A stretch of DNA of 64,000 bases. It comes from a virus. Numbering within the stretch: position 1 is the stretch's first letter; each line of letters begins with the position of its first letter. Shown here in pieces: positions 11,403 through 53,726 of the stretch. Made by a program: the position numbers and the translations under genes. Location of the stretch: positions 62,001 to 126,000 of IMG/VR virus record IMGVR_UViG_3300028394_000044, one strand, 5' to 3'. The notes beneath the pieces are model-generated. The model worked only from the letters and a program-made list of their open reading frames with translations. It ran no database searches and had not been told where the DNA came from.

Positions 11403-12140
11403 ATGGCAGGTGCATTAGCAGAACGACAAGAATCGGGTGTAGTTGAAAAAATTAATAGCGCATTCAAAGCGAACGGTAAAAATCCAATCACTTTAGTTGC
11501 CGGCAAAACTACAATTGTTGGTGTAGTTGGTGCTGAAAAATACACAGGTAGACAAGCTGGTGGTTCAGAACCATATACAGATGTTGTTATTAGCGCCATC
11601 GTCAAAGGTAAAAAGATTGATATTAATTGTTCCCTAAAAGGTGAATCTGCTCCATCTCTAGCAGGAGGCGGTTTAAAAGGTTTAGAACTTGCTGTGCCTG
11701 GTATTGCAAAAAAGTTTATGGAAGCTGCATTTAAAGAATTAACAGGTAGAAAAAAATTGCAAACGGGCGATAAAGTACCTGACGTATTTGGTAAAATTTC
11801 AGATAATGATAAAGTGAAAATTGTTGTTGGAAATAAAGCGATGGGCGGACCTATTGACTATATGTACATTGGTCCTATGAATGTTACTGGTAAATATGAT
11901 AAAAATAGTAACACCTTGACTTTAAACGGAACATTAACTGAAGCTGTAAAATATGCAAAAACCCATGACTTATATTTCCGACTAAGAGCTAGAAGAGAAG
12001 ATCAAAGATTTGATCCTGATTCGAAAGATAGAGATGGAACACCAAAGATTTATGGTGTTTCTCCTTCCCGTGGCGATAGTGCCGGTCGTATTGTTGTTAC
12101 TGACAAAGTGGCCTCAACAGGCGTAATTGTAAAAATATGA
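11403..12140 (+). CDS. Conserved phage protein, possibly virion-associated
   Basis: A 245-residue, glycine- and lysine-rich protein of unknown function. Features are a GVVGAEKYTGRQAGG segment, GESAPSLAGGGLKGLE and a C-terminal FRLRARREDQRF. It is the first gene after a late-type promoter and has a good GGAG site, which suggests late expression and possibly a structural role. It overlaps the downstream ligase-like gene by four bases. Confidence 0.7.
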   Translation: MAGALAERQESGVVEKINSAFKANGKNPITLVAGKTTIVGVVGAEKYTGRQAGGSEPYTDVVISAIVKGKKIDINCSLKGESAPSLAGGGLKGLELAVPGIAKKFMEAAFKELTGRKKLQTGDKVPDVFGKISDNDKVKIVVGNKAMGGPIDYMYIGPMNVTGKYDKNSNTLTLNGTLTEAVKYAKTHDLYFRLRARREDQRFDPDSKDRDGTPKIYGVSPSRGDSAGRIVVTDKVASTGVIVKI

Positions 12141-13372
12141 AATTTACCGAATTTTTAACCGAAGGTGTCAAAAAAGAAGGTGCAAATCTTCACTTAGAAC
12201 ACATTGAGGACGAAGTATTAAACCGTGGTGTCTCTGGTGCTAGAGATGCTATTAACTTTTTGCGATCTCTTAGAGATATGTTAGCTGGTCATGCTGATTC
12301 CAAAGTAGCCACAACAACTAAATGGGATGGCGCACCTGCTGTCTTCTGCGGTATCAATCCTGACAATGGTAAGTTCTTTGTCGGTACCAAGGGAGTCTTT
12401 AACGTTAATCCGAAGCTGAATTATACAGATGCGGATATTGATACTAATCATCCAAGTGAAGGTCTAAATGCAAAATTAAAAGTTGCTTTGCGCTATTTGC
12501 CTAAACTTGGTATTGATGGTATTCTTCAGGGCGATATGATGTTTACTAAAGGTGATGTGCAGAAAAAAACAATTGATGGCGTTAAGTACATTATCTTTCA
12601 ACCAAACACTATTGTTTATGCTGTGCCCGAAGATTCTGCACTTGCCAAAACGATGCTATCTGCACAAATGGGTATAGTATTTCATACTTCATACACAGGT
12701 AAGACCTTCTCTGATATGAAGGCTTCTTTTAACATTGATATTAATCACTTAAAGACAACAAAAGATGTTTGGTTCCGAGATGCTTACTTTATTGATGCAT
12801 CAGGCACAGCATCGTTTACTGAGAAAGAGACAAAAGAAGTTACTTATGCACTTTCTGATGCAGGTACACTATTTCAAAAAATCAATTCTATGACACTGAA
12901 TAGAATCAGCACTAACGAAACTTTACTAGTTCAAATTAAAACTTTCAATAATACAAAGGTTCGTGAAGGAAAAGCTATCACTGACACAGTTAAACATACA
13001 CAAGAATTGATTAAGTGGGTTGAAGAGAAGCTGAATAAAGAAATCTTAGCTGCTAAAAAAGAAGACACTAAACTAAAACGTCAAGCTGAGAAGAATGAAA
13101 TCATGCGTTTCTACCGAAACAATAATGGTGAACTCATTAAGATTTTCAATTTGATGAATGACTTAGTGATTGTTAAAAATATGATTGTGAATAAATTGCA
13201 ACAAATGAAGCAAGTAACACATACTTTCTTACAAACTGATGATGGATATAAAATTACCAATCCTGAAGGTTTTGTTGCTGTAGATAAACTATCTGGTGGC
13301 GCTGTTAAATTAATTGATCGTTTAGAATTTGCTCATGCCAATTTTACGGCTGCAAAAAATTGGTCAAAATAA
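12137..13372 (+). CDS. Ligase-like covalent nucleotidyltransferase (DUF6267-type)
   Basis: A 411-residue protein resembling a phage family of unknown function. It carries the signature of covalent nucleotidyltransferases: motif I TKWDGAPA with Lys62, an IDGILQGDMM segment (about 126-135) in the place of motif III/IIIa, EGFV (377-380) as motif IV and AVKLIDR (389-395) as motif V. This is the pattern of DNA/RNA ligases and capping enzymes, so lysyl-AMP chemistry is possible; substrate unknown. The N-terminus MKFTEFLTEG resembles a T4 capsid-targeting peptide ending at a prohead-protease site. Confidence 0.72.
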   Translation: MKFTEFLTEGVKKEGANLHLEHIEDEVLNRGVSGARDAINFLRSLRDMLAGHADSKVATTTKWDGAPAVFCGINPDNGKFFVGTKGVFNVNPKLNYTDADIDTNHPSEGLNAKLKVALRYLPKLGIDGILQGDMMFTKGDVQKKTIDGVKYIIFQPNTIVYAVPEDSALAKTMLSAQMGIVFHTSYTGKTFSDMKASFNIDINHLKTTKDVWFRDAYFIDASGTASFTEKETKEVTYALSDAGTLFQKINSMTLNRISTNETLLVQIKTFNNTKVREGKAITDTVKHTQELIKWVEEKLNKEILAAKKEDTKLKRQAEKNEIMRFYRNNNGELIKIFNLMNDLVIVKNMIVNKLQQMKQVTHTFLQTDDGYKITNPEGFVAVDKLSGGAVKLIDRLEFAHANFTAAKNWSK

Positions 13373-13393
13373 AAAATTAAAGAAGATAAAAAA

Positions 13394-13687
13394 ATGAAAA
13401 AAATAATTCTACTTTTAGCTTTGCTATGTGCAAATTTTGCACATGCTCAACATTGGCATCATGGTTATCACCACGGCGGCGGTTATGGTGGTGGTTGGAA
13501 TTGGGTAGTGCCTGCTATTATTGGTGGCGCCGTTGTTTATGGTGTCACACGACCACCAGAAAGACCAGTTGTAATTGAGCAACAAACTATTATTGCACCA
13601 TATGCACCGCCTGCTGGTTTTCATTGGGAACAAATTGTTGATGCAAACTGTAATTGCAAAAGACTTGTACTGGTACAGAATCAATGA
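13394..13687 (+). CDS. Exported His/Gly-rich small membrane protein
   Basis: A 97-residue protein with a clear signal peptide (MKKIILLLALLCANFAHA, likely cleaved after AHA), then a His/Gly-rich stretch (HWHHGYHHGGGYGGG), a hydrophobic segment WVVPAIIGGAVVYGV and a Pro-rich tail with CNC. It is likely located in the envelope. Metal binding by the His cluster is inference. The function is unknown. Confidence 0.7.
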   Translation: MKKIILLLALLCANFAHAQHWHHGYHHGGGYGGGWNWVVPAIIGGAVVYGVTRPPERPVVIEQQTIIAPYAPPAGFHWEQIVDANCNCKRLVLVQNQ

Positions 13688-13842
13688 TAAAATTCAGAAA
13701 ATTTAAAGCACTACATAATAGTGTGAAAGAAGAAAAAGAGAAGAAGTCTCCTAATTCAGATATTCTTCCTGTCGCTGGTGCCGGACAATGGGGCACAAAC
13801 AAATTGACCAACAAGTATAAGAAAGATACGCCAGGTCAGTAA
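13684..13842 (+). CDS. Small conserved phage protein
   Basis: A 52-residue, lysine-rich protein with PVAGAGQWGTNKLTNKYKK near its end, resembling short proteins of marine T4-like phages of unknown role. The start at 13684 gives an ATGA overlap with the preceding stop. Confidence 0.65.
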   Translation: MIKFRKFKALHNSVKEEKEKKSPNSDILPVAGAGQWGTNKLTNKYKKDTPGQ

Positions 13843-13866
13843 TTTATAATTTTTTTGGAGTATATT

Positions 13867-14706
13867 ATGAGAGATTTAATTATAGGATGTTCTACTGGTT
13901 ATTCTTGGGACACAATAAAGTATTGGGTTAATTCTATTAACCAATCAGGATTTGAGGGTGAAAAAGCCCTCATTCTTATGAATTGTGATATTCAAACCGC
14001 ACAAAAAGTTGCTGATGCAGGTTTTATTATTATTGGTTTTGGTCAAGACGAACAGGGAAACCTAATCTTCCAGCACGGTAAGATTCCTGTTCACGTAGAG
14101 AGATTTCTACACATCTACAATCATCTTAATGATAACGAATATCGGTACGTTATTACTACCGATGTGAAAGATGTTATCTTTCAGAAAAATCCAATCGAAT
14201 ATATTGAAAGCAATCTACGTGATTGGGATAACTTGCTGTTTGCTTCTGAAAGTATCAAGTACAAAGATGAAGCATGGGGTAATCAGAATCTCTTGGAGAC
14301 TTACGGTCCTTACATTCATGAACGTTTTAAAGACAATGAAATTTACAACGTTGGTGTTTTAGCTGGTCACGGTAAATCTATGCGTGATTTGTGCATTAAC
14401 ATTTTCACTGCGGCTATCAATCGTCCTATTCCAATTTGTGACCAGTCAACATTTAACTTTATGATTTCAATGTCTCCTTATTTGGAGACCAGCAAATATG
14501 CCAAGTCTGAAGATGGATGGGCAGCACAACTCGGCACAACTGGTGATCCAAGCAAAATGAATATTCACTTGCCTTATTTGCTAGAAGCAATTCCAAAAAT
14601 GGAAGGTGATAAGGTACTAACCTCTACCGGCAAAGAGTTTACAATCGTACACCAGTATGATAGAGTGCCTGAATGGCGTAAGATTATTGAGGCAAAATAT
14701 GGTTGA
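13867..14706 (+). CDS. Glycosyltransferase-like protein
   Basis: A 279-residue protein that opens the glycan cluster. It has YVITTDVKDVIFQ near residue 98, a DxxD signature followed by a hydrophobic strand that resembles the nucleotide-sugar-binding acidic motif of GT-A type enzymes, and a YNVGVLAG segment later, typical of such folds. The substrate cannot be inferred. ATG 13867 with GGAG seven bases upstream is preferred over an in-frame TTG at 13855. Confidence 0.6.
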   Translation: MRDLIIGCSTGYSWDTIKYWVNSINQSGFEGEKALILMNCDIQTAQKVADAGFIIIGFGQDEQGNLIFQHGKIPVHVERFLHIYNHLNDNEYRYVITTDVKDVIFQKNPIEYIESNLRDWDNLLFASESIKYKDEAWGNQNLLETYGPYIHERFKDNEIYNVGVLAGHGKSMRDLCINIFTAAINRPIPICDQSTFNFMISMSPYLETSKYAKSEDGWAAQLGTTGDPSKMNIHLPYLLEAIPKMEGDKVLTSTGKEFTIVHQYDRVPEWRKIIEAKYG

Positions 14707-15385
14707 TGGTGTATTTTTTATTAGTTCTGCTTTGAATGTTAAGCAGTTGTCGGTATTTAACAATGAAGAACGTTACAAACAGACGGCAGAAACGATTAAA
14801 AGTATTGACAAGTATTGTCCAAATAATGTAAAATACATGTTCGACACCTCATATGAAGAACCTAATCTTGAGTATATTGATAGTATGCAGAAGATGGGTG
14901 TAGAGTTCTTCTATACTGGTATACATCCCAGTGTTAAAGAGTTTTCTGATAAAGGTCAACGCAGTCTTGCTGAGACTCTTGGCTTTGCAATGATACTCCA
15001 ACACTTTAAGTATAACAAGATTAATTGTAAAAGAATTTACAAAATGTCAGGTAGATACAAATTGAACGATAATTTCATTTTGAATAAAGAAGAGTTCAAA
15101 GATTCGTTTGTATTTTTACCTACAGTAGATTCTTGGATGTCAAAAGATATTCAAGAGATGGCAGGTGTCGATAAGATTTTTGAATTGAGACTTTGGCATA
15201 TGGATGCTAATTTGTTTGATACCTTTTTTGCAGAGTTGCCTAACATCTTTCAGTGTATGGCACAAAACAATATTGATGTTGAACATTCATATTACAAATA
15301 TCTGAATAAGTATAAGTGGACAACAGTAGAACCGATTGGATTGGAAGGTGCAATTGCACCAACAGGAGAAATTATTAATGAGTAA
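14699..15385 (+). CDS. Hypothetical glycan-cluster protein
   Basis: A 228-residue protein beginning MVDGVFFISSALN. It has an RSLAETLGFAMILQHF helix and IYKMSGRYKLND, reminiscent of glycosyltransferase-like proteins in capsule and LPS clusters, but no decisive motif is visible. It overlaps the previous gene by eight bases and the next by eight, so it is translated as part of the same operon. Confidence 0.55.
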   Translation: MVDGVFFISSALNVKQLSVFNNEERYKQTAETIKSIDKYCPNNVKYMFDTSYEEPNLEYIDSMQKMGVEFFYTGIHPSVKEFSDKGQRSLAETLGFAMILQHFKYNKINCKRIYKMSGRYKLNDNFILNKEEFKDSFVFLPTVDSWMSKDIQEMAGVDKIFELRLWHMDANLFDTFFAELPNIFQCMAQNNIDVEHSYYKYLNKYKWTTVEPIGLEGAIAPTGEIINE

Positions 15386-16412
15386 AAATGTTTTGATTAC
15401 TGGTGGTGCTGGATTTATCGCTCATCATGCTATAGATAAAATGTTGAAAGAAACTGATTGGAATATTATCTGCCTCGACAGGCTTGATATTTCAGGCAAC
15501 TTGAATCGGCTACATGATATGTTACAAGACCATGATCCTGTAATTGTATCTAAGAGGTTGCGGATCATTTTCCATGACCTTCGTGCAGAATTGAATAGTC
15601 AAATTGTTGCTGATATTGGTCACGTTGATATTATTTTGCACCTAGCCGCAGCAAGTCACGTTGACCGTTCTATCACATACCCTATGGAGTTTGTGCAAGA
15701 CAACGTTATTGGTACAGTCAATATGCTCGACTATGCACGTAAGAACTTTCCGACTTTGGATCGTTTTGTTTATTTCTCGACTGATGAAATCTTTGGTGTA
15801 GCACCTCCCGGTGTTAGTTACAAAGAATATGACCGTTACAATAGCACTAATCCATATTCTGCAAGTAAAGCTGCTGCTGAAGAATTCTGTGTTGCTTATG
15901 AGAATACATATAAACTACCAATCGTAGTTACACATACCATGAATGTATTTGGTGAACGTCAACATCCAGAGAAGTTTATTCCTGCAACTATTCAGAAAGT
16001 ACGTGATGGTCAAAAAGTTATCATTCATGCTGATCCTTCTCGTACAAAAGCCGGTACTCGTATGTACATCCATGCTAAAGATGTTGCAGAAGGATTGCTG
16101 TTCATTCTAAATCTAAAAGATTATAAACACACAGGCGATTATGGTCATGCACATTGTCCTAAGTTTAACTTAGTTGGTACTGAAGAGATTGATAACCTGA
16201 CACTCGCACAATTGATTGCTGGTGGTGTTGACAAAGAACTCATTTATGAAATGACTGATTTCCACACTAGCAGACCAGGACACGATTTGCGTTATGCACT
16301 AGATGGTGGTTTATTAAAGAGTCTTGGATGGGAACCTAAAATTAAATTGAGTGAACGAATTAACGAAATGGTTAAATGGTCATTAGAGAACAATCGCTGG
16401 TTAAACAAGTGA
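15378..16412 (+). CDS. NDP-sugar 4,6-dehydratase (RmlB-like SDR)
   Basis: An extended short-chain dehydrogenase of the dTDP-glucose 4,6-dehydratase type (344 residues). Seen: the NAD-binding GGAGFI (residues 9-14), LAAASHVDRS, FSTDEIFG (TDE at the active site) and the catalytic NPYSASK (Tyr-x3-Lys). RTKAGTRMYIHAKDVA resembles the sugar-nucleotide binding region. It would produce an NDP-4-keto-6-deoxy sugar, the usual precursor of the C-methyltransferase reaction encoded next. The start at 15378 has AGGAG upstream. Confidence 0.87.
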   Translation: MSKNVLITGGAGFIAHHAIDKMLKETDWNIICLDRLDISGNLNRLHDMLQDHDPVIVSKRLRIIFHDLRAELNSQIVADIGHVDIILHLAAASHVDRSITYPMEFVQDNVIGTVNMLDYARKNFPTLDRFVYFSTDEIFGVAPPGVSYKEYDRYNSTNPYSASKAAAEEFCVAYENTYKLPIVVTHTMNVFGERQHPEKFIPATIQKVRDGQKVIIHADPSRTKAGTRMYIHAKDVAEGLLFILNLKDYKHTGDYGHAHCPKFNLVGTEEIDNLTLAQLIAGGVDKELIYEMTDFHTSRPGHDLRYALDGGLLKSLGWEPKIKLSERINEMVKWSLENNRWLNK

Positions 16413-16419
16413 GATTATT

Positions 16420-17646
16420 ATGAACTGTGAAATTATTGAATCCTGTATTGCTTGTGGTAGCAATGACCTTGTTCCTGTATTGGACTTAGGTAATCAACCA
16501 CTCGCAAACTCTTACAAGAAAACTGCTGATGAAGTTGAAGAATATTATCCTTTAGCTATCAATCGATGTGAACATTGTTATCATGTACAACTAACTCATC
16601 GTGTCAATCCTGATTTGATGTTTAAAGACTATGCATATGTTTCGGGTACAGCAAAAACTCAGCTAGACTACTTTGAGTGGTTTGCAGATTTTGTATCTGA
16701 AAAATATGGTACTCGTCCAATAAATGCGCTCGATATTGGTTGTAACGATGGCAGTATGTTGAATGCATTTCAGGATAGAGGTGCGGAAACTTATGGTGTT
16801 GATCCTGCTGAGAATTTGTATGCAACTTCATCAGAAAGACATAAAGTTCATTGTGGCTATTTTACTGGCGATGAGTGGTCTGATAAATTTGATGTGATTA
16901 CTTGCATGAATGCATTTGCACATAACTTTGACCAACTTGAATTGTTGAAGAATATCTCTAAGAAGATGCACAAAGACAGTTTATTGTTTGCTACAACTTC
17001 TCAGTGTGATATGATTGTTAATGGTGAATTTGATACAATCTACCATGAACATTTGTCCTTCTACAATATCAAGTCAATTGATGCACTATGCAAGAGAGCA
17101 GGTCTAAATTTGATTGATGTTGAAAAGCATCCAATCCACGGCAACAGCTACATCTTTGTTATCAGCAAATACAAGAAAGCTCCTGCTACAATCAGTAATC
17201 TAATTACACAAGAGCAAGCACTTGGTCTCTATTCTGAATCGACATATTCTACTTATGCGGAAGATTGCTATAAAAACGTGAAGTTATTCAAAACTGTTAT
17301 TGAAAATGCAAGTGAGCAAGGAAAAGTTATTGTTGGTTATGGTGCACCTGCCAAAGGTAATACATTAATGAACTTTGCTGGTATTGGTCCAGATTTTATT
17401 ATTGATGACAATCCATTGAAGCAAGGTTTGTTTGCCCCTGGTGTAAACGTTCCAATCTATGGTTCCAATTATCTCGACAAATATGTAAACGATAAAGGTT
17501 TAGTTTTTATTCCTCTAGCTTGGAATTTCTTCAATGAAATTAAAAGTAAGATTAAATCTAAAAGACCTAATGGTGAAGACTATTTTATAAAATATTTTCC
17601 AACCTTTGTAGTCGAAAATCCTGAAGTAGCGCATCATCCTGTATGA
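16420..17646 (+). CDS. NDP-hexose C-methyltransferase
   Basis: A SAM-dependent C-methyltransferase of the TylC3/NovU type that makes branched-chain deoxysugars. The N-terminal zinc site uses Cys9, Cys12, Cys50 and Cys53 (CIACG ... CEHC). The SAM motif is ALDIGCNDGSML (about residue 104). The C-terminal domain has GYGAPAKGNTLMNF, typical of the family. It acts on 4-keto-6-deoxy sugars, which fits the dehydratase just upstream. The 408-residue length is normal for this family. Confidence 0.87.
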   Translation: MNCEIIESCIACGSNDLVPVLDLGNQPLANSYKKTADEVEEYYPLAINRCEHCYHVQLTHRVNPDLMFKDYAYVSGTAKTQLDYFEWFADFVSEKYGTRPINALDIGCNDGSMLNAFQDRGAETYGVDPAENLYATSSERHKVHCGYFTGDEWSDKFDVITCMNAFAHNFDQLELLKNISKKMHKDSLLFATTSQCDMIVNGEFDTIYHEHLSFYNIKSIDALCKRAGLNLIDVEKHPIHGNSYIFVISKYKKAPATISNLITQEQALGLYSESTYSTYAEDCYKNVKLFKTVIENASEQGKVIVGYGAPAKGNTLMNFAGIGPDFIIDDNPLKQGLFAPGVNVPIYGSNYLDKYVNDKGLVFIPLAWNFFNEIKSKIKSKRPNGEDYFIKYFPTFVVENPEVAHHPV

Positions 17647-18338
17647 AAATAGGTTTTGCTTTTTACGGTATCACTCATGGTACTGATAAGAAAACTGGTT
17701 ACACAAGAGACTTTCGAGAGTGTTGGGATAACATCCAAACGCTTCTGATTGATCCTTTCAAAGAACTTGGACATGAAACTATAAATTATGCTTCCACATA
17801 TCCGTTTGGAGATTTGGAAGTACGTGATGAATTTTATCGATTAGTTGCACCAAAGAAGGTAATCTATCCAGACTTTGAAGGTTCAAATGCATTCACTGCT
17901 AAATCTGCACTGCATGAAGTACTCATCGGAGAAGAATTAGATGCGGTAATCTTCACTCGTTTTGACATTTTATTTCACGATAAGATTGCTATTCATACTC
18001 AAATCGACTATAATAAGGTCAATGTTTTATTTCCTGAAGACCCTAATTGGTGGGCAAGTCATAGATTTGTTTGTGATTGTTTCTACATTTGGAACCACAA
18101 ATTTAGTCCTCTAGTTAAAGACGCTATGCGTGAGACATATGGTTGGCCAAGAGGCACTGAATATCCTGATACACATGGTATTCTGAACTTTTTGGTACCT
18201 AAAATTGGTACTGAGAATGTGAATTTTCTAGACACCGAATGTCAGATAAGTAACGTAAACAAATATTATACACTATGCAGACCGGATGTTCCAGACCATC
18301 CAATGAAGCATTCTTATGTGAAAGCGAAATATGGCTAA
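17643..18338 (+). CDS. Hypothetical glycan-cluster protein
   Basis: A 231-residue protein of unknown function. FTRFDILF near residue 103 recalls the acidic substrate-binding segment of some glycosyltransferases. It overlaps the previous gene by four bases and the next by eight, within the glycan operon. Confidence 0.55.
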   Translation: MKIGFAFYGITHGTDKKTGYTRDFRECWDNIQTLLIDPFKELGHETINYASTYPFGDLEVRDEFYRLVAPKKVIYPDFEGSNAFTAKSALHEVLIGEELDAVIFTRFDILFHDKIAIHTQIDYNKVNVLFPEDPNWWASHRFVCDCFYIWNHKFSPLVKDAMRETYGWPRGTEYPDTHGILNFLVPKIGTENVNFLDTECQISNVNKYYTLCRPDVPDHPMKHSYVKAKYG

Positions 18339-19077
18339 GAATTTGATTATTTGTCCTGTTGGCATGGCGATGCCACACGATACTAGGTGGAAAGAAGAAG
18401 ACCATTGGAGATGGACTCACAATGAACGCAACTATGAAACACTCGTAGTTGTCTACAATGATTTTGAGCCTGAGCCAGGTTCATATGACCATATTCTAAG
18501 AATGAAAGGTCACAAATGGCAAATCGTTCAAGAAGTTGCGAAATCTTTTCCCATTGAAGACTATGAATATATTGGTTGTGTTGATGATGATTTGATTACA
18601 GGTTATCAAGACTTCAATACAGGTCTATCACTTGCTCACCATTTTAATTTCCAATACTGGCAGTTGTCTATGCCATTAGACTCTAGTTTGATTTACCAAT
18701 GCTTGTTCAATGATCCCACTTGCCATTTTTCTGAAACAAACTTCATTGAGATGGGTTCTTGTTTCTTTACACTAGAGAAGTTCAAGTTTCTAATGGAGTT
18801 TATTGGTCACTGGCCATTAGTAATTGCATGGGGAATAGACAAGACATTCTATGACTTGTTCCAATGTCCAGCAAACGTAGTTCATTGTGCCCAAATTCAT
18901 CAACCAATTCGTGATAGTTACTATGATAAAACTGAAGCTATGATGGAAATGAATGATTACTTGAATTTCAGATACCCATCTATTTTACGTGACCACTATA
19001 ATCGCAAGTCCAATTTTGTTGACCAACAACAAACCTTAAAGAAATTTATTTTAAATGTTGAAACTAGTAATACTTGA
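18331..19077 (+). CDS. DUF707-like glycosyltransferase candidate
   Basis: A 248-residue protein with YIGCVDDDLIT (a DDD motif near residue 85) and WGIDKTFYDL (about 168), a combination resembling the DUF707 family of predicted GT-A-like proteins. It lies in a run of overlapping genes for nucleotide-sugar metabolism. The donor and acceptor are unknown. Confidence 0.6.
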   Translation: MAKNLIICPVGMAMPHDTRWKEEDHWRWTHNERNYETLVVVYNDFEPEPGSYDHILRMKGHKWQIVQEVAKSFPIEDYEYIGCVDDDLITGYQDFNTGLSLAHHFNFQYWQLSMPLDSSLIYQCLFNDPTCHFSETNFIEMGSCFFTLEKFKFLMEFIGHWPLVIAWGIDKTFYDLFQCPANVVHCAQIHQPIRDSYYDKTEAMMEMNDYLNFRYPSILRDHYNRKSNFVDQQQTLKKFILNVETSNT

Positions 19078-21442: not shown

Positions 21443-21891
21443 TTTTAATTTCTCATCGAGGCAATACTGAAGGCCCTAATATTCTATTAGAAAATACACC
21501 TAATTACATTCAGTCCGCAATCGACAGACAGTATATGGTTGAAGTTGATATATGGAAAAAAGATGATGTTTATTATATCGGTCACGATGCAAGTACAATG
21601 AATCCTGTTGACATTAATTGGCTAATTGATCGCCGGCAATGGCTCTGGATTCATTGTAAAAATAGAGAAGCATTAGACTCAATTTTAAGATTAAATCTTC
21701 ATTGTTTTTGGCACAATGAAGATTCTTATACCATGACAAGCAAAGGATACGTTTGGTGTTATCCTGGTCAACCTGCAGTGGGTTGGTTATCTGTAGCAGT
21801 CATGCCAGAAAAAAGAATTGATTTAAAAGACTTTAAATCGAATGAATATTTTGCTGTTTGTAGTGACTTTGTGAGTTTGCTAAATACATAA
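21439..21891 (+). CDS. Glycerophosphodiester phosphodiesterase-like protein
   Basis: A short (150-residue) relative of the GDPD/PLC-like TIM-barrel family. It has SHRGN near the start (catalytic His-Arg), LLENT (Glu-Asn), MVEVDIW (metal-binding Glu and Asp) and YIGHDAS (second His). Complete enzymes are longer (~250), so this may be a minimal or truncated form. Its stop codon overlaps a late-type promoter for the next gene. Confidence 0.7.
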   Translation: MILISHRGNTEGPNILLENTPNYIQSAIDRQYMVEVDIWKKDDVYYIGHDASTMNPVDINWLIDRRQWLWIHCKNREALDSILRLNLHCFWHNEDSYTMTSKGYVWCYPGQPAVGWLSVAVMPEKRIDLKDFKSNEYFAVCSDFVSLLNT

Positions 21892-21894
21892 ATA
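21887..21894 (+). promoter_or_regulatory. Late-type promoter variant CATAAATA
   Basis: CATAAATA covers the stop codon of the GDPD-like gene, 35 bases before the start of the multidomain protein at 21930. The same variant stands before the structural gene at 28121, which supports a late role. Confidence 0.45.
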
Positions 21895-21929
21895 ATATGT
21901 AAAACTAACTTGCTGTAGAGGCATAAAAT

Positions 21930-24257
21930 ATGGATTTCAAGTCGTTTCTAGACGAACAAGCGCAAAAACATGCGGTCCTTGCTTTTGGACGTATGAACCC
22001 ACCAACAACTGGTCATGCAAAGTTAGTTGATAAGGTCAAAGAAGTTGCTAAAGAAGTGGGTGGAACACATCACGTAGTTCTATCTCACAGCCAAGATGTT
22101 AGTAAGAATCCACTATCAGCCGAACAAAAGCTGAAACATGCACACAGATTCTTTCCAGATACCAATCTGAGCACCTCGGATAAAGAACATCCAACATTCT
22201 TACAACACGCAGCCAAATTACATAAAACTGGTGTCACACACTTACATATGGTTGCAGGTTCCGATCGGGTTGGCGAATATGAAAAGAAACTAGCACAATA
22301 CAATGGCACACACAAAGGTGCTTTGTATAATTTCAAAAAAATCACAGTTCATTCTGCCGGAGAACGTGATCCTGATGCCGAAGGCACAGAAGGTATGTCT
22401 GCATCCAAGATGCGTGAACATGCTAAAAATAACAACCTAAAAGACTTTAAAAAAGGTGTTCCGTCCCATGTTTCACATGAACATGCTAAGGAATTGATGC
22501 AGGATGTTCGTAAAGGGATGAATGTTAAAGAAGATTTTAATTCAATCATCTTTAATATACTGACCGAAGGTGTGCATGATAAGAGTATTTTTAAAGCAGT
22601 TTTTCTATCCGGTGGACCAGGTTCAGGTAAAGATTATATCCTCGACAACACATTAGCTGGTCATGGATTGGTAGAAATCAACTCTGATAAAGCATTAGAG
22701 TTCTTGATGGATAAGAACAATCTTGATAAGAAGATGCCAGAGTCCGAAAAAGATATTCGCAACATCGTTCGTGGTAAAGCGAAAGATATGACAGAACTGA
22801 AACAACACCTTGCATTGTTAGGACGTAATGGTCTTATTATCAATGGTACAGGTGATGATCCAGCTAAGTATACAAAAATTAAAAAGAATCTAGAGTCTAT
22901 TGGCTATGAAACTATGATGGTTTCAGTTAATACAAAAGATGAAGTTTCTTCACAAAGAAATATTGAGCGTGGTCAACGTGGCGGTCGTACAGTACCTGAA
23001 GATATTCGTAAAGAAAAATGGGATGCTGTAAACAATGCCAGACCTGAAATGGCAAAGTTGTTTGGTCACAATTACTATGAGATTGATAACTCTGAAGACT
23101 TACGTTCAGCGAAGCCAGATGTTGTCAAAGCTAAAAAAGACGAAATGTTGAACATTTTCAAAAAAGTTCAAGAATTTGTTAAAACAGCACCTAAGAACAA
23201 TGAAGCTAAACAATGGGTTGCTGGCGAATTGAGTAAGAAAGATACATTACCAATCGATAAGAAAGGTGCAGAGTATTCTGGTCCTGCACCCGATGATGCT
23301 GCTCAAACTGAAGCAACCAGACTTGGTTTACAATATTATGGTTTTGGTCGTTACGGAAAAAATAGTAAAGTTACTCACCACTCTGTACATGGTAAATTGG
23401 TGCAAGATCCAACACATGCAGAACAACAAAAAGTTGCAGCCAAAGCTGCAAAAGTCAAACCAAATTTGGGTAGTGGTTCACCTGCATCCAAAAAAGTTTC
23501 TGAAAGTATCAATGAAGAATTTGAGAAACTTATAAGTGAAGTTGGAACTATTCATAATGGAAATTATGATGGTCCAAAAACTGCAAAAGGTCCTGAAGGA
23601 CATACATATACTGCAACGGCTGGAAAGCCAAGAGTTTATGCAATACGTAATTCGGCAGCTAAAGACGCACACCGTATGAATGGTGAAGTTATTAAGACCG
23701 AAAAAGGTTACATGGTTAAATTAAAGGAGAATAAACATGTTGAAATTTCTAAAGAGCTTTTGGAGCAAAAAACAATCAGTATCAGCACCAGTGGTGACAC
23801 CGGAGCCAGTCAAGGTACCAGAACCGGTGGAAGCAGTAAAGCCACCAGTGGTGACACCTACACCTGCACCAGAACCAGTGGTGGAAACACCATTAGTGAA
23901 GACGCCGGATGTGGATGTGACTCCTGCCAAACAACCGGCAGCCGCTATGACACCAGCCCCAAAGAAAAAAAGAAACTCTACCTCTCGCAAGCCAAAGACA
24001 AACTCGCCAAAAAAGTAAAAGAGTCTATCGACCAAGGTATTGAAACTGGAATGTCCATGGCAGCCGGAGGTGAATCCGGTAGCCGTGACATGGGTGAGAA
24101 ATTGAGTAAAAAAGGTAAGGCTATACCTTTCACTAAAGATTCACTCAAAGAAATGGGTGGAGATGAAACTACCGCATCTATTGGTGACCAAAAAGAAGAT
24201 GAGTTGAAGAAACAAGGTATTAGTTTAATTTCATTTAAAAAGAGAAACTACACATGA
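21930..24257 (+). CDS. NMNAT-like / P-loop kinase multidomain protein, CTS-like N-terminus
   Basis: A 775-residue protein. Residues 1-10 (MDFKSFLDEQ) resemble a T4 capsid-targeting peptide. Residues about 14-190 form a nucleotidyltransferase domain of the NMNAT type: FGRMNPPTTGH (the (T/H)xGH motif at 26-29) and GMSASKMR (the SxxxxR-like motif). About 222-400 is a P-loop kinase, zeta-toxin or polynucleotide-kinase-like, with Walker A GGPGSGKD (228-235). Between them lies FNSIIFNILTEG, a possible prohead-protease site. The tail has EKKKLYL and GISLISFKKR. Residues about 608-690 are low-complexity Ser/Thr/Gly and overlap another ORF. Confidence 0.8.
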   Translation: MDFKSFLDEQAQKHAVLAFGRMNPPTTGHAKLVDKVKEVAKEVGGTHHVVLSHSQDVSKNPLSAEQKLKHAHRFFPDTNLSTSDKEHPTFLQHAAKLHKTGVTHLHMVAGSDRVGEYEKKLAQYNGTHKGALYNFKKITVHSAGERDPDAEGTEGMSASKMREHAKNNNLKDFKKGVPSHVSHEHAKELMQDVRKGMNVKEDFNSIIFNILTEGVHDKSIFKAVFLSGGPGSGKDYILDNTLAGHGLVEINSDKALEFLMDKNNLDKKMPESEKDIRNIVRGKAKDMTELKQHLALLGRNGLIINGTGDDPAKYTKIKKNLESIGYETMMVSVNTKDEVSSQRNIERGQRGGRTVPEDIRKEKWDAVNNARPEMAKLFGHNYYEIDNSEDLRSAKPDVVKAKKDEMLNIFKKVQEFVKTAPKNNEAKQWVAGELSKKDTLPIDKKGAEYSGPAPDDAAQTEATRLGLQYYGFGRYGKNSKVTHHSVHGKLVQDPTHAEQQKVAAKAAKVKPNLGSGSPASKKVSESINEEFEKLISEVGTIHNGNYDGPKTAKGPEGHTYTATAGKPRVYAIRNSAAKDAHRMNGEVIKTEKGYMVKLKENKHVEISKELLEQKTISISTSGDTGASQGTRTGGSSKATSGDTYTCTRTSGGNTISEDAGCGCDSCQTTGSRYDTSPKEKKKLYLSQAKDKLAKKVKESIDQGIETGMSMAAGGESGSRDMGEKLSKKGKAIPFTKDSLKEMGGDETTASIGDQKEDELKKQGISLISFKKRNYT
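23737..24018 (+). CDS. Overprinted Pro/Val-rich small protein
   Basis: A 93-residue ORF in the +1 frame wholly inside the 21930 gene. It has a strong ribosome binding site (AAAGGAG at 23725-23731) five bases before its ATG. The product has a basic amphipathic start (MLKFLKSFWSKK), a long Pro/Val/Glu repeat (EPVKVPEPVEAVKPP and similar) and a basic tail (APKKKRNSTSRKPK). This looks like a real linker-type protein, whereas the long frame here reads as Thr/Gly/Ser/Cys filler. Expression is inference. Confidence 0.6.
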   Translation: MLKFLKSFWSKKQSVSAPVVTPEPVKVPEPVEAVKPPVVTPTPAPEPVVETPLVKTPDVDVTPAKQPAAAMTPAPKKKRNSTSRKPKTNSPKK

Positions 24258-24550
24258 AATCATTCATTTCTTTTATTACTGAAGGTTCTCCTGCTTGGCA
24301 ACGCAAAGAAGGTAAAAATCCTGAAGGTGGATTAAACCGTAAAGGTATTGCTTCTTATCGTTCCGAACATCCAGGGTCTAAACTCTCAATGGCTGTTACA
24401 ACTAAGCCCTCAGAATTAAAACCTGGCTCTAAAGCTGCTAATCGTAGAAAATCGTTCTGTGCTAGAATGGGTGGTGTTGATGGACCAATGGAGAAACCAA
24501 ATGGTGAACCAACACGTAAAGCACTAGCATTAAGAAAATGGAATTGCTAA
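24254..24550 (+). CDS. DUF6321-type phage protein, CTS-like N-terminus
   Basis: A 98-residue basic protein with MKSFISFITEG at the start, like a capsid-targeting peptide, then AWQRKEGKNPEGGLNRKG, GSKAANRRKSFCARM and EPTRKALALRKWNC. This composition is typical of a conserved family in T4-like marine phages of unknown function. Its high Lys/Arg content suggests nucleic-acid contact. It overlaps the preceding gene by four bases. Confidence 0.78.
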   Translation: MKSFISFITEGSPAWQRKEGKNPEGGLNRKGIASYRSEHPGSKLSMAVTTKPSELKPGSKAANRRKSFCARMGGVDGPMEKPNGEPTRKALALRKWNC

Positions 24551-24576
24551 TTTAAAATAACAAAAAAGGAAAAAAC

Positions 24577-25818
24577 ATGTTTCAAGACAAATCATTACTC
24601 GCAGTTGCCGAAGCTGTTAAAAAAGTTTGGGCGGAAGGCTTAACAGATAAGCAAAAAAAGATTGATAAAAATCACAATAATAAAATTGATGGTCAAGACT
24701 TGGCTATTTTGCGTAAAGAAGGTTGGGATGATATGATGAAGGCCGTTAAAGATAGAGCGGCTCCACAACCAAATGGTGGTGCAGGTAAGAAGCAAGGTTC
24801 TGCTTACGGTGGTTCTAAGCAAAAAGATGAAAAGCCTTTGAAAGAAGAAGATGCATACAGCAAAGATCGCTATGCAGTTAAAGATGGTAAAGCTATGAAA
24901 GATAATCCTACACACAAGGGTCATCCTGACTATGCAGATAAGCCACATCACGTTTGGGCTACAAGTCCTGAAGAAGCGATGAAAAAAAAGAAGACTGTTA
25001 AAGAAGAAGCATCACAAGCTGAATTCACTGCTGAATTGAAGAAAGCTCAAGCAAAAGCTCAAGGCAAAGAAAAAGCTGATGTTGCAAAGCCTGCTGTGCA
25101 AGCTGTGCAAAATGAACAGACACACACGCAAATAGAAGTATTTAACTTGAATGACGCTAATGGTGTTAAGCGTTCAGTTATTGATTTGGAAGAAGCTAAA
25201 TCTGGTTACGATTTGTATCACTCAATGTATTCTGGTGCAGTTCAACATGGATTAGCTCATCACGAAAAAAGTGGTTTGACAGTTGATCCTGATGATTATC
25301 ATGATAAAGTAACTGTTGGTCCAAAAAAACCTTCAGAAGGTAAAACTGTTAGTCACAATATTAAAGCAACAAATGCTAAAGGTGAATCACATATGATTCA
25401 TATGCAAGTCCACAATAAAGGTGGAAATAAACCTTACGAATTGAATACTTATTCTAGCAAAGTTCCAAAAAAACAAGTTAAAGAAGAACATACTGGTCTA
25501 CATCCAGATGCACAAAAAGTATTGAAGCATATTAAGCCGGAACATCAATCTAAGTATCATGCCGATCTAACACCAAAAACATACAAGGGTGATTATGCTG
25601 ATAGATCAGCAATCCTTGATGCTGCTGAAAGAGCAGGTCATTTAAAAGAAGAAGTTGAGCAAATTGATGAACGTCATTTAACTTCTGCTGAATCTGAAAA
25701 AATGGAAAAGAATGTTAAGTCTATGAAAAAAGGTTTATCTGGTTTTAAAGAACGTTATGGCAAAGATGCTAAATCTGTGATGTATGCGACGGCAACAAAA
25801 CAGGCCAAGGGAGAGTGA
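24577..25818 (+). CDS. Putative head-internal protein with EF-hand loop
   Basis: A 413-residue, Lys/Glu-rich, largely disordered protein. An EF-hand-like calcium loop spans residues 30-41 (DKNHNNKIDGQD: acids or Asn at positions 1, 3, 5, 9 and 12, Ile at 8). Near the end are EEVEQIDE and ERYGKDAKSVMYATATK, segments shared by internal or structural proteins of T4-like phages. VWAEG near residue 20 could be a prohead-protease site. It precedes and overlaps functionally with a similar 754-residue protein. A role as a core or injected protein is inference. Confidence 0.7.
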   Translation: MFQDKSLLAVAEAVKKVWAEGLTDKQKKIDKNHNNKIDGQDLAILRKEGWDDMMKAVKDRAAPQPNGGAGKKQGSAYGGSKQKDEKPLKEEDAYSKDRYAVKDGKAMKDNPTHKGHPDYADKPHHVWATSPEEAMKKKKTVKEEASQAEFTAELKKAQAKAQGKEKADVAKPAVQAVQNEQTHTQIEVFNLNDANGVKRSVIDLEEAKSGYDLYHSMYSGAVQHGLAHHEKSGLTVDPDDYHDKVTVGPKKPSEGKTVSHNIKATNAKGESHMIHMQVHNKGGNKPYELNTYSSKVPKKQVKEEHTGLHPDAQKVLKHIKPEHQSKYHADLTPKTYKGDYADRSAILDAAERAGHLKEEVEQIDERHLTSAESEKMEKNVKSMKKGLSGFKERYGKDAKSVMYATATKQAKGE

Positions 25819-25819
25819 A

Positions 25820-28084
25820 ATGAGAAGTTTCAAGCAGATTGCAAGTCTTGTCCGAGGTGAGGACATTTCGGAAGAGGGTAAAAAGTCTCTCGGAACAGGA
25901 TGGATGCTGAAGGCTGATCCAAAATTGGGAAAAGCCGTCAAAGATAAGATCGACCTTACTAAAAAACGTCAAGCAACTTATGGTGATAAATCGGCTGGCA
26001 AGTCCATCAAAGAAGATATTTCACTTGATGAAGTAATGTTCAAAAAAAGTCCTTATGGTAGAACTGCGGCAAGTCAACAACGAGCTAAAGATTTGCTGAA
26101 CCCTCCAAAAGAATCAACCGAAACTAAAGCGGATGAAAAGAAAGAGGTTAAAGAAGCTGTTAAGCAACCAACAGGTAAATTGAAAGATGCCTGCTGGACT
26201 GGTTACACTGCTGTTGGTACAAAAATGAAGAACGGTAGAGAAGTTCCTAATTGTGTACCAGTCAAAGAAGATTTTGAGCAACTTGACGAAATGCCAGGTG
26301 CTAACATGGATACACGGGCTGTACATTCTCACCTAAAGAAAAAAGGTTGGTCTTTAAGTCGTACTTCTGGTGGGCATGATGTATTCACCCATCCTAATGC
26401 GGCTCATCATATTCCAGTTCCTCGTCACCGCCAGTTAAAAGCACCTCTGATTAAAGGTATTTTAAAATCCTCTCAGATTAGTGAAGAAACTAAAGATGTT
26501 GGTGAATATGACTATGAAGGTCAAATGGCTCGTACACAATTACAAACAACATTGCGTAATTGTGAAGATTTACTTGGAATGATTAACGATAATGATAATA
26601 TGCCTGAGTGGGTACAATCTAAGATAACCTTAGCTCAAGACTATATCACAACTGTTAGAGATTATCTACAATCAAAAGAGGAACTCGGTGAAGAAGTTGA
26701 TCCTGCACATAAAAAGATTCTAGATAAAGCGAAAACCAGTACACCTAAATCACCTAAAGGTGAATATGATCGCAAGGTTGAAAAGTATCTGAAGAAAAAG
26801 CATGGCATGAAAGAAGAAGTTGAGCAGATTGATGAGTTGTCTAAGAAAACTCTTGGCTCGTATGTCAATAAAGCACTGGACAGCGCAAGAGAAATGCCTG
26901 GCTCTGGCACGAATGCTGAAGCCAGCAAAAAGTCAAAACGTTTCGCTTCTGTTTCTGCGGCTGCATATCGCACACAAGGTCTTGCGCCAAGAAAAGGCAC
27001 TGATATGTTTAAAAAGTACAAAGCTGAAAGTGTTGTGGCGGAAGGCTCATTAGAAGAAGATAAATATGATAAAATGCTAAGAGATTTGGTGAAGGCAAGA
27101 CCTGACTTAAATAAAAAATATGCCAAAGATGTTAAAAGGTCAAAAGATATTGAAAGTGGCAAAGAGTTAAACAAACTTGTTAAAAAGAATCCTGGTGTAT
27201 TGAAAACACACAGTGATGCTGTAAAGAGAGATAAGAAACTAGGTATGGCGGAAGGCCTATCAGAAATGGACAAATCACAAACTCCGCCAGGACGAGACGG
27301 TCACGTAAGTCATGGCACATACGGTTCTAGAGACAAGAAAGATCCGGATGCTGGTAAGAAACAAGTCTACGGCAAAATGGAGCGCCCTGAAAAAACAACC
27401 AAAACGGCATCGGATATTCTTAACAAAGCATTTAATAAAGGTGTGGCAGAAGCTGTGACATATGAGCCAAGTCCGGGTGCTCGTCCAAATAACGCTGGAC
27501 ATACGCTTGTTGGTTTCTCATTTCATTCCGATAACACAAAACATGCTAACATTATGAAGCATGGTGAGACTGGTAAGTATTATGCTGCAGGTGGCAGTTC
27601 TTCACATCCCGTTAAAAGTACCACATTTCACGATACACCCGAAGATGCTGTTAAAAGCAAAAAGTCTTATGTTAAAGAAGAAGTTGGTCAAGCAACAAAT
27701 TCAAATGAAAATCCAAACAAGGGTCGTTTCATGTCTGCACCAGCTAAAAAAGTAATGAAGCCATCACCTATGGTAACTTCAGAGCAATCTGCTTCTGATA
27801 TTGGTCAACCACAAAGAGAAATTCCTCTTGATACAGCTAAAACTGACCACTCCACCGCTATGAAGATAGCTAAGTTGGCTGCACGTAGACAAGCAGGAAT
27901 CAAAGAGGACATGGAAGCAGACAACTCACTAGGTAAAAATGATACTCTTGCTAAACAAAGCCTTAGCAGAACTGCTGGCATTACAAAAGACCTTGCACTT
28001 ACTGGCAAGAATAAAGAAAATGTGAAGAATAAGGAAAAGTTCGAGCCTGAACCAGAACTATCTTCACAAATCGTTAAACCTTAA
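25820..28084 (+). CDS. Multidomain polyprotein with embedded HicA-like domain
   Basis: A 754-residue modular protein beginning MRSFKQIASLVRGEDISEEG, loosely CTS-like. Modules: a CWTGYTAVG...VPNCVPV segment (about 125-148) common in T4-like marine phages; a HicA-like double-stranded-RNA-binding mRNA interferase fold (about 166-220: HLKKKGWSLSRTSGGHDVFT, then IPVPRHRQL and IKGILK), with the expected catalytic His186; EEVEQIDELSKKTLGSYV (about 330); and a C-terminal EDMEADNS region. Repeated (V/I)xE-G/S sites could be cut by the prohead protease. The start at 25820 has GGGAGA just upstream. The HicA activity is inference. Confidence 0.72.
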   Translation: MRSFKQIASLVRGEDISEEGKKSLGTGWMLKADPKLGKAVKDKIDLTKKRQATYGDKSAGKSIKEDISLDEVMFKKSPYGRTAASQQRAKDLLNPPKESTETKADEKKEVKEAVKQPTGKLKDACWTGYTAVGTKMKNGREVPNCVPVKEDFEQLDEMPGANMDTRAVHSHLKKKGWSLSRTSGGHDVFTHPNAAHHIPVPRHRQLKAPLIKGILKSSQISEETKDVGEYDYEGQMARTQLQTTLRNCEDLLGMINDNDNMPEWVQSKITLAQDYITTVRDYLQSKEELGEEVDPAHKKILDKAKTSTPKSPKGEYDRKVEKYLKKKHGMKEEVEQIDELSKKTLGSYVNKALDSAREMPGSGTNAEASKKSKRFASVSAAAYRTQGLAPRKGTDMFKKYKAESVVAEGSLEEDKYDKMLRDLVKARPDLNKKYAKDVKRSKDIESGKELNKLVKKNPGVLKTHSDAVKRDKKLGMAEGLSEMDKSQTPPGRDGHVSHGTYGSRDKKDPDAGKKQVYGKMERPEKTTKTASDILNKAFNKGVAEAVTYEPSPGARPNNAGHTLVGFSFHSDNTKHANIMKHGETGKYYAAGGSSSHPVKSTTFHDTPEDAVKSKKSYVKEEVGQATNSNENPNKGRFMSAPAKKVMKPSPMVTSEQSASDIGQPQREIPLDTAKTDHSTAMKIAKLAARRQAGIKEDMEADNSLGKNDTLAKQSLSRTAGITKDLALTGKNKENVKNKEKFEPEPELSSQIVKP

Positions 28085-28087
28085 TTT

Positions 28088-28095
28088 CATAAATA
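28088..28095 (+). promoter_or_regulatory. Late-type promoter variant CATAAATA
   Basis: CATAAATA lies four bases after the preceding stop codon and 25 bases before the start of the structural gene at 28121, in the short gap between two genes. Confidence 0.55.
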
Positions 28096-28120
28096 GAATA
28101 ATAACAAAAGGAGACACTAA

Positions 28121-28684
28121 ATGTCACTATGGTCCGTTTCAGATTCAAGCAATGCCGCACCTAAATTTGCAGGTGTTGATGTAAGTATTGGTGCCAGCGC
28201 AACTGGTTCATCATTGTTTGGTAACACACAAATTGCCGCATTCCAGACTACTAAAAATATCACTGTTGGTGTTTTTGGTGTAGGTACAACTGAACAAGGT
28301 GTATCCGCTTCATCAAATATACATCCACAACATGCTGGTTGGGTTCTGGTTAAAAGTGGCACTGGCCCAGTTGTTAGCATTACAGCTAACGCATCGGCAG
28401 TTGCAACTAATACTTACTTGACTTTCACAGGTACAACAGGTTCTACTACTGCCAACGCAACTGTGACAGTTAATACTGCTGGTTATATCCAATCAGTTAC
28501 TGTTAACTCTGGTGGTAACTACTTGAGAGCACCTGCTATTACTCAAGTTGGTAACGCTAACTTCACAATCACCATGGGTGGTCGTGCTGGTCGTGTACAA
28601 ACAGAAACTCTTGTTGCTATGGCATCTATTGGCACACAAGGTGTTGCTGATGCAAGCGACAATGCTACTTTCCCAAATAGCTAA
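28121..28684 (+). CDS. Virion structural protein
   Basis: A 187-residue Gly/Thr/Ala-rich protein. The start MSLWSVSDSSNAAPKF, a GVFGV...HAGWVL block and the end GGRAGRVQTETLVAMAS match a structural protein common in T4-like marine phages. Between them (about residues 86-150) is an inserted beta-rich, Thr/Ser-rich stretch with SVTVNSGGNYLRAPA, as in tail-fibre or Ig-like repeats. It has a strong GGAG site and a late-type promoter. The exact position in the virion is unknown. Confidence 0.8.
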   Translation: MSLWSVSDSSNAAPKFAGVDVSIGASATGSSLFGNTQIAAFQTTKNITVGVFGVGTTEQGVSASSNIHPQHAGWVLVKSGTGPVVSITANASAVATNTYLTFTGTTGSTTANATVTVNTAGYIQSVTVNSGGNYLRAPAITQVGNANFTITMGGRAGRVQTETLVAMASIGTQGVADASDNATFPNS

Positions 28685-29070
28685 TGATTGATTTTAAATT
28701 ATTCTTGAGTGAAGAATTGGAAGACTCTGAAGTTAATTTGGTGTCTTCCTACAACAGTCAAGAACTAAATGATAGTTTGTTCAGAGATTTGAGTAGTCCT
28801 TTTCTTTCTGTACAAGCTGGATTTTCTTACTTAAGAAAAACTTTATTTTCTTATGGTATAGATATTCCACCTGTGTTTGATTTGGATCCAGAAGGTGACG
28901 AAATGTTGTTGGATGTTTCCGGGTATGGTGCAGAGCAGTCATCAATATTGTATGTTTTATATTCTCTAACCGATGATGGTTATTATGATTTCTATGCTGA
29001 ACTCACTGATGAGTCTGGTGCGGATGAATTGCTGAAATCTGGTACAGAGGAGCAAGAAGAAGAAGTTTAA
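28684..29070 (+). CDS. Hypothetical acidic protein, CTS-like N-terminus
   Basis: A 128-residue acidic protein beginning MIDFKLFLSEELEDSE, again resembling a capsid-targeting peptide with an LSE cleavage-like site. No other domain is recognised. The C-terminus is poly-Glu. It overlaps both neighbours by one base. Confidence 0.65.
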   Translation: MIDFKLFLSEELEDSEVNLVSSYNSQELNDSLFRDLSSPFLSVQAGFSYLRKTLFSYGIDIPPVFDLDPEGDEMLLDVSGYGAEQSSILYVLYSLTDDGYYDFYAELTDESGADELLKSGTEEQEEEV

Positions 29071-41334: not shown

Positions 41335-41335
41335 T

Positions 41336-41581: not shown

Positions 41582-41583
41582 TT

Positions 41584-53688: not shown

Positions 53689-53726
53689 TATTAAAATTCA
53701 TTTAATGAGTGAGTTTCAGTATGTCT

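Follow-up and report, generated by a model that had tools for sequence, protein, structure and literature searches.

Capsid-targeting-like N-termini of the T4 type on enzymes of a lake phage

Several unrelated proteins encoded by a T4-related lake phage, enzymes among them, start with a similar stretch of about ten residues, which raises the question of what this shared beginning is for. In T4, the internal proteins IPI–IPIII bear a capsid-targeting sequence, and Alt a short propeptide, processed by gp21; there, as here, the element occupies the N-terminal 9–10 residues. In IPIII, targeting depends mainly on residues 4 and 7, and processing is governed by residues 8 and 10 (PMC9026906). The genes lie in a window of 64,000 nucleotides that belongs to a genome of 162 kb; a nucleotide similarity search against known phages gave no match. 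The genes, tags, sites and promoter motifs given below with coordinate ranges are on the plus strand. We consider it highly likely that these short stretches act as capsid-targeting sequences of the T4 type and load enzymes into the head; packaging, cleavage and injection have not been shown directly in this phage.

The N-terminal motif and its conservation

A rule based on the T4 sequence (M-x(1-3)-hydrophobic-xx-[FYW]-[LIVM]-x-E) matched ipII and ipIII and no others among 29 T4 genes; their N-terminus, taken from the T4 record, is MKTYQEFIAE/A (slashes mark the expected cut). Over the 162-kb genome the rule gave five matches in 236 open reading frames (660 candidate starts), against a mean of 0.76 after shuffling and a maximum of five among 2,000 shuffles. 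Four of these are N-termini that the original prediction, whose coordinates are all correct, had likened to the T4 sequence: MKFTEFLTE/G (12137..12163), MDFKSFLDE/Q (21930..21956), MKSFISFITE/G (24254..24283) and MIDFKLFLSE/E (28684..28713). Their spacing is that of T4 ipII/ipIII, and they meet the definition of a T4-type capsid-targeting sequence, a motif of about ten residues with aromatic or hydrophobic residues three apart and an [L/I]-x-E site. A protein at 25820 had been proposed as a looser example; its N-terminus, MRSFKQIASLVRGED, does not match the rule and was rejected as a tag. The fifth match, MRLIDFIFE/G, begins the small basic ORF 41184, whose gene is placed between those for the portal and the prohead protease.

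Proteins of at least four unrelated families begin with the tag; the protein clusters were built without the first 10 residues. It is carried by 95 of 101 complete, distinct DUF6267 homologues, by 80/119 NMNAT and 58/80 DUF6321 homologues and, under the strict rule, by 14 of 22 relatives of the 128-residue protein at 28684, whose fold is unknown. Homologues of the interspersed neighbouring genes lack it (0/14 for the gene that opens the DUF6267 operon, 11403..12140, itself untagged, and 0/65 and 0/38 for others). Distinct tagged proteins number 264, compared with 17 for the reversed motif, 32 when the glutamate is changed to K and 50 when it is changed to D/Q. The codons for F, L and E vary synonymously. 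Most tagged genes are clustered in a single island, flanked by helicase on one side and primase/nrdA on the other, and the enzymes that bear the tag differ between lineages.

Tagged proteins and sites between modules

The DUF6267 protein (12137..13372; 411 aa; PF19782, E 6e-113) has residues 1–17 disordered in its AlphaFold model, so that the tag lies outside the predicted fold. K62, D64, G65, E377, G378, V380 and K391 are invariant in an alignment of 45 sequences; they supply motif I (KxDG, 12320-12331), motif IV (EGxV, here EGFV, 13265-13276) and the downstream K of motif V, the signature of covalent nucleotidyltransferases (RNA/DNA ligases). No ligase fold or profile emerged from PDB Foldseek, from a profile comparison with PDB or from a Pfam scan of the 45 members, and the best BFVD match outside the family was an RNA ligase with an E value of only 0.33. 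The earlier description of this enzyme as ligase-like thus rests on motifs only. The classic marine cyanophage S-PM2 encodes a DUF6267-NMNAT fusion without the tag, which counts against the targeting reading.

The 775-aa product of 21930..24257 is an NMNAT-like nucleotidyltransferase fused to a Zeta-toxin/polynucleotide-kinase-like P-loop kinase (PF01467 and PF06414; phrog_3041 and phrog_2071). It contains GRMNPPTTGH (21987-22016), SASKMR (22398-22415) and GGPGSGKD (22611-22634), and its catalytic motifs are kept, with G28 and H29 invariant and the P-loop at residues 228-235. At the boundary between its two domains is a prohead-protease-like site, FNILTE/G (22551..22568; expected cut between E213 and G214, with L211 at P3), which falls in a disordered linker (202-216) of the structure model, corresponds to the N-terminus MIPFILKEG of a standalone kinase in HTVC008M, and appears as [LIVM]xE in 50 of 51 distinct contexts before the kinase.

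Downstream lies the DUF6321 protein (24254..24550; 98 aa; PF19846, E 4e-21), a module that also occurs within larger cargo proteins and is preceded by [LIVM]xE in 74 of 77 contexts. The modular protein at 24577..25818 has no strict tag; an EF-hand-like module follows VWAE/G (24625-24636) and a C-terminal module follows QIDE/R (25654-25671). The recurrence of ILTEG and VWAEG sites had been pointed out before: the former is well supported, the latter more weakly, as P3 is W and the site precedes the EF-hand-like module in 31/38 contexts under a relaxed rule only. The polyprotein-like product of 25820..28084 contains candidate sites at 26018-26032, 26276-26290, 26471-26485, 26822-26836, 27029-27043, 27239-27253 and 27437-27451. 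Between QLDE/ and QISE/ it houses the anticipated HicA-like module (26291..26476; PF07927, E 5e-9), which with its SGGH satisfies the profile and catalytic-histidine definition of a HicA mRNA interferase, in the absence of activity data. This module is preceded by [LIVM]xE in 18/18 contexts and is properly tagged in some relatives, for example MKSFTQFINEEVEILDE/MPGAN in L226.

For the kinase, HicA and DUF6321 modules taken together, 142 of 146 contexts have [LIVM]xE directly before the module, with control anchors at 0/57 (YGFGR) and 11/60 (DYEG); the DYEG module often has its site about 6-10 residues further upstream (61/70 under the relaxed rule). Generic BLAST boundaries show a moderate enrichment (37.5% vs 22.7%), far less clear than the module-anchored counts. 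The large proteins, judged by their sequences, look like polyproteins. The weight of the internal sites, which point to polyprotein cargo, had been understated.

Head genes, late-promoter motifs and virions of relatives

Among the genes of this phage are those for a gp21-type prohead protease (PF03420, E 2e-35) and for homologues of the gp22 scaffold (T4_CASP, E 4e-66) and of gp23 (Gp23, E 9e-138). The gp23 homologue carries an LxE/A site, KDAGYLTE/AVP. The late-type motif NATAAATA stands before all three tagged operons and before gp18, gp19 and gp22, a match of motif alone without expression data. It heads the 11403-12137 operon as TATAAATA (11375..11382), and as CATAAATA both the 21930-28084 operon (21887..21894, at −43 from the ATG at 21930) and the 28121-28684 operon (28088..28095, at −33 from the ATG at 28121). 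The count of exact TATAAATA within the window is at chance level, and only placement before genes is informative.

Published mass spectrometry of relatives places tagged proteins in virions. In S-CREM2 four of five are virion proteins (gp6, gp13, gp14 and gp154; gp175 was undetected), an enrichment over all other genes with p = 0.0003 outside the morphogenesis blocks. The NMNAT homologue is both tagged and virion-borne in S-CREM2, S-SZBM1 and S-SCSM1, and kinase-like proteins have also been found in mature virions of relatives. Untagged DUF6267 homologues do not appear among the virion proteins listed for S-CREM2 and S-SZBM1. Many virion proteins from the same island have no strict tag, such as SSCSM1_90 and 92 and S-CREM2 gp156, which indicates that other routes into the virion exist. 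The reported particles were purified on CsCl, which cannot alone exclude contamination, and the S-CREM2 authors themselves state that co-purified abundant proteins cannot be ruled out. As a side observation, an S-CREM2 protein annotated as 'Cas9' has LRFASFMAEA within its N-terminal region; the annotation is unconfirmed (no Pfam match, phrog_3561 only).

The proposal that the enzymes are head cargo is supported because five lines, each of which could have failed, agree with it: conservation across families with synonymous codons, the gp21-type protease, the operons headed by late-promoter motifs, the virion data of relatives and the absence of tag-less homologues from two virion lists. It had been advanced originally with 25820 among the tagged proteins and with a ligase-like enzyme; the former falls away, the latter is reduced to motifs, and the core is upheld, with the published mass spectrometry of relatives as its main test.

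An unlikely alternative is that the tag is real and the proteins are scaffold-like components of the head core, consumed during assembly, so that enzymes are undelivered or reach the host only as inert fragments. ORF 41184 is suggestive here, as its tag-like N-terminus sits in the slot of the T4 core proteins gp67/gp68, and a number of cargo proteins have long, charged sequences of low complexity; the conserved catalytic motifs of the NMNAT and kinase, the presence of such proteins in mature virions of relatives and the lineage-dependent choice of tagged enzymes argue otherwise. Less credible still is a shared peptide that binds scaffold or another structure and stays uncleaved. The hydrophobic/aromatic part alone would be enough for binding, and T4 IPIII with aspartate at position 10 is blocked in processing and keeps its targeting (PMC9026906); however, the P1 glutamate and the P3 L/I/V/M are conserved as a pair and turn up again, minus the aromatic part, precisely where modules meet inside larger proteins, as a protease site predicts, and D/Q/K versions are much rarer. 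Coincidence or common descent, through duplication or a conserved DNA element such as a promoter or ribosome site, with the virion matches as contaminants, is very improbable: modules are common to some cargo families, whose 5' ends could be common too, and abundant cytosolic proteins do occur in CsCl preparations, but the unrelated families, the synonymous codons, the enrichment of tagged proteins among virion proteins and the undetected untagged DUF6267 homologues speak against it.

Probable head cargo in aquatic T4-like phages

On the capsid-targeting reading, the tagged enzymes probably travel in the head and enter the cell with the DNA, packaging being inferred here and injection inferred from T4. 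The proteins would be made late in infection together with the structural proteins; the hydrophobic/aromatic residues of the tag would attach them to the scaffold core while the head assembles, so that they become enclosed. The gp21-type protease would then cut behind the glutamate of the tag and, probably, at the corresponding sites that separate modules, and the mature head would contain the NMNAT-like enzyme, the P-loop kinase, the ligase-like DUF6267, DUF6321 and perhaps the HicA-like domain, each as a protein of its own. These may leave with the DNA and serve counter-defence or host takeover.

This phage and T4 have in common the distance between the two targeting residues and the placement of the L/I-x-E site, a gp21-family protease and late-type promoter motifs. 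The T4 cargo consists of small basic internal proteins and Alt, whereas the cargo proposed here consists of enzymes of metabolism and nucleic acids together with modular polyproteins, in aquatic phages of the Kyanoviridae type; unlike in T4, protease-type sites lie between modules and most tagged genes share one island. The T4-like cyanophages S-CREM2, S-SCSM1, S-SZBM1 and S-CRM01 possess an NMNAT domain homologous to this one, for the most part at the equivalent place in the genome, and mass spectrometry has detected it in virions (PMC10665884, PMC9602691, PMC9146016); the parts of these papers available describe no targeting signal and do not settle the question of contamination, and the tag described here ties their proteins to the T4 route. 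Neither the kinase fused to NMNAT nor a tagged DUF6267 was found in these four phages. The giant phages phiKZ and SPN3US, a separate group, likewise enclose many proteins in the head, and their ejection proteins are cut by a gp21-related prohead protease and delivered with the DNA (PMC5694885, PMC10052503).

A broader proposal, for which we hold the chances to be even, is that the tag is a general loading address in aquatic T4-like phages and that the prohead protease splits tagged polyprotein cargo into separate enzymes, a kit injected with the DNA that, ahead of any phage gene expression, could act on NAD, on nucleotide signals and on restriction. Such a kit would include NMNAT, the P-loop kinase, HicA and DUF6321 and, in other lineages, SAM lyase, a protein kinase and an Acb1-type anti-CBASS enzyme.

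Enzymes have turned up time and again in cyanophage virions, and proteomics has not settled whether they belong there as cargo or are contaminants, nor by what route they would enter. A conserved loading tag of the T4 type would offer both a mechanism and a sequence rule by which cargo could be predicted from genome sequence alone, and this for phages that abound in lakes and oceans. Effectors carried in the head, likely counter-defence enzymes among them, would become directly testable, and alternative tags would be on offer for loading proteins into phage heads.

Targeting-like N-termini in the phage genome

On sequence grounds the phage is a T4-like myovirus. The full IMG/VR record comprises 162,299 bases, the window being its bases 62001–126000, and the protein relatives belong to the Kyanoviridae, including Methylophilales phage Melnitz, Pelagibacter phage HTVC008M, C48C1 and cyanophages, as well as Stenotrophomonas phage DLP6. 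Within the window, sequence and synteny identify genes for a DNA polymerase, UvsX, a helicase, a primase and RNR, along with 27 tRNA genes. The head module is found in the flanks outside it and includes a prohead protease (Peptidase_S77, E 2e-35), a scaffold protein (T4_CASP) and gp23. The tRNA genes form a near-complete set at 53614–59504. Beside them, an unusual location, minus-strand genes at 59492–62948 resemble by eye, without database search, a bacterial amino-acid racemase, a dicarboxylate symporter and a periplasmic binding protein.

In the T4 record, ipII and ipIII begin with MKTYQEFIAE/A (the slash marks the position after the glutamate of the site); targeting of IPIII depends mainly on residues 4 and 7, and processing on residues 8 and 10 (PMC9026906). 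A single search rule built from this tag, M-x(1-3)-[FYLIWM]-xx-[FYW]-[LIVM]-x-E, matches only ipII and ipIII among the 29 genes of a 15-kb T4 stretch, where it does not catch ipI. In the phage under study it matches exactly five proteins, against a chance expectation of 0.76 from shuffled N-termini: the DUF6267 protein (12137), the NMNAT-kinase protein (21930), the DUF6321 protein (24254), a 128-aa protein (28684) and a small basic ORF at genome 41184. The modular protein 25820, which the original prediction had counted as a looser member, falls outside the rule. The ORF at 41184–41624 (L004:2184-2621) lies in the portal–protease interval and starts MRLIDFIFEG; it is probably a core protein of the gp67/gp68 kind that shares the tag. 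At genome 40492, the preceding ORF starts MKSLQEFKLISEE.

The tagged genes in the window occupy a slot between the helicase (9970) and primase/RNR (32804, 34527). In the matching slot of cyanophage S-SCSM1, seven proteins carry a virion-protein label in the record. Between the two tagged operons, genes at 13855–21891 resembling sugar or nucleotide-sugar metabolism part DUF6267 from NMNAT, which in relatives, unlike this phage, are near neighbours. The motif NATAAATA stands upstream of 19 of 191 genes versus 0.5% of coding windows, and the genes that it precedes are mainly structural (sheath, tube, scaffold, baseplate). On the window's plus strand, with genes shorter than 80 aa or beyond about position 62 kb set aside, it precedes three only: 11403, the untagged first gene of the operon with 12137; 21930, heading an operon to 28084; and 28121, in operon with 28684. 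All tagged window genes thus lie in late-type operons, on motif evidence alone.

Conservation of the tag

Among relatives gathered from IMG/VR by three queries, the tag is present in 95 of 101 complete DUF6267 homologues, 80/119 for NMNAT, 58/80 for DUF6321 and 14/22 for p28684, and in none of the homologues of neighbouring genes (0/14, 0/65, 0/38). It is kept in DUF6267 proteins of only 30% identity, and an AlphaFold model of DUF6267 (pLDDT 85) places residues 1–17 in disorder. Rule-matching homologues have F at P7 in about 80–100% and F or Y at P4 in all. Since the rule itself dictates P1 (E) and P3 in such proteins, the unbiased figures are the complete-homologue counts and a second set with starts picked on distance alone. 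The codons for the tag F, L and E vary synonymously, which indicates that the peptide is selected and not a DNA element. Applied to all fetched loci, the rule yields 264 distinct proteins, which fall into 33 clusters if residues 1–10 are disregarded; altered motifs give 17 (reversed), 32 (E to K) and 50 (E to D/Q). Because the loci were fetched for these families, the clusters do not sample phage genes at random; related sequences are also not independent, so that the evolutionary events behind the large counts are fewer than the counts suggest.

Tagged proteins in virions of relatives and sites between modules

A virion list by mass spectrometry has been published for cyanophage S-CREM2 (PMC10665884 Table 3). 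Reading of 201 S-CREM2 genes yields five rule matches, against 0.2 expected. Four are virion proteins: gp6 (SAM lyase, MKDFDSFLEE), gp13 (MKDLHSFLTE), gp14 (kinase, MKRFDAFLTE) and gp154 (cytidylyltransferase, MKNFSSFLTE); the fifth, gp175, is not among them. Tag and presence in the virion are associated with Fisher p = 0.007 for all genes and 0.0003 outside morphogenesis blocks. Tagged NMNAT homologues are likewise reported in virions of S-SZBM1 (MRFRQFIIEA) and S-SCSM1 (MKSFLQFLKEA). The DUF6267 proteins of S-CREM2 and S-SZBM1 lack the tag and are missing from both virion lists, and are a natural control. S-PM2 has an untagged DUF6267–NMNAT fusion, so tagging of DUF6267 is lineage-specific. 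A protein kinase is cited as present in S-CRM01 virions (PMC10665884); the likeliest candidate is g130, with the N-terminus MISFDQFLSE.

Virion enzymes could be contaminants, and the S-CREM2 authors leave cargo versus contaminant undecided (PMC10665884). Virions of relatives also contain untagged proteins; the tag argues for cargo over contamination for the S-CREM2 enzymes. In the open literature, with subscription papers and preprints outside coverage, 'capsid targeting sequence' with 'cyanophage' returned a T4 review only. Packaging, cleavage and injection in the phage itself, as originally proposed, remain inferred, without direct data.

Two further observations concern virion proteins of relatives. 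S-CREM2 gp12 (L012:7704-10313, minus), annotated Cas9, carries LRFASFMAEA at residues 17–26; its name is doubtful, as it has no Pfam domain and its PHROG match is to an unknown family only. S-CREM2 gp160 (L013:18343-19236) and SSCSM1_97 (L233:4622-4807) contain a stretch similar to the one that directly follows the gp23 cleavage region (GFTGAAAPEGPVAGYDPLM); judged by sequence, the N-terminus of mature gp23 seems to be copied into these other proteins.

Similar sites recur inside the proteins. In 21930, FNILTE/G precedes the kinase and, in the AlphaFold model, sits within a disordered stretch (202–216) with a folded domain on each side. At this boundary [LIVM]xE is found in 50 of 51 distinct contexts, despite widely varying preceding sequence, and HTVC008M encodes the kinase on its own, in a gene starting MIPFILKE/G. 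The motif also precedes the DUF6321 module (74/77 contexts, some after an N-terminal tag, some internal) and the HicA (18/18), LSKKT (5/5) and LTSAE (37/39) modules. Two other module anchors have it in 0/57 and 11/60 contexts, so the boundary motif does not reflect general composition. On the simplest interpretation, the prohead protease would cut the modules apart inside the head, an inference without cleavage data. Because 25820 has no strict tag, its entry into the head is not explained.

Putative cargo functions

Protein 21930 has intact NMNAT motifs (GRMNPPTTGH, SASKMR) and an intact kinase P-loop. DUF6267 proteins share three invariant elements of ligase-type nucleotidyltransferases, KxDG, EGxV and a K; fold and profile searches gave no support for that assignment. 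Tagged proteins with a HAD-phosphatase-like DIDDTLF start (L198:1944-2684, L228:1305-2054, L143:2243-2881) are another cargo family, whose identity is not established. An Acb1-type anti-CBASS 2H phosphoesterase with the tag MKSFKSYLTEQ is encoded at L113:10724-11227 (IMGVR_UViG_3300042868_003730), with a PF23474 match (E 7e-14) and both HxT motifs; tagged versions are present in three IMG/VR contigs, which suggests that an anti-CBASS enzyme is carried in the head. Together with the SAM lyase among the tagged cargo of S-CREM2, it points, by inference, to an early counter-defence role of the tagged cargo.
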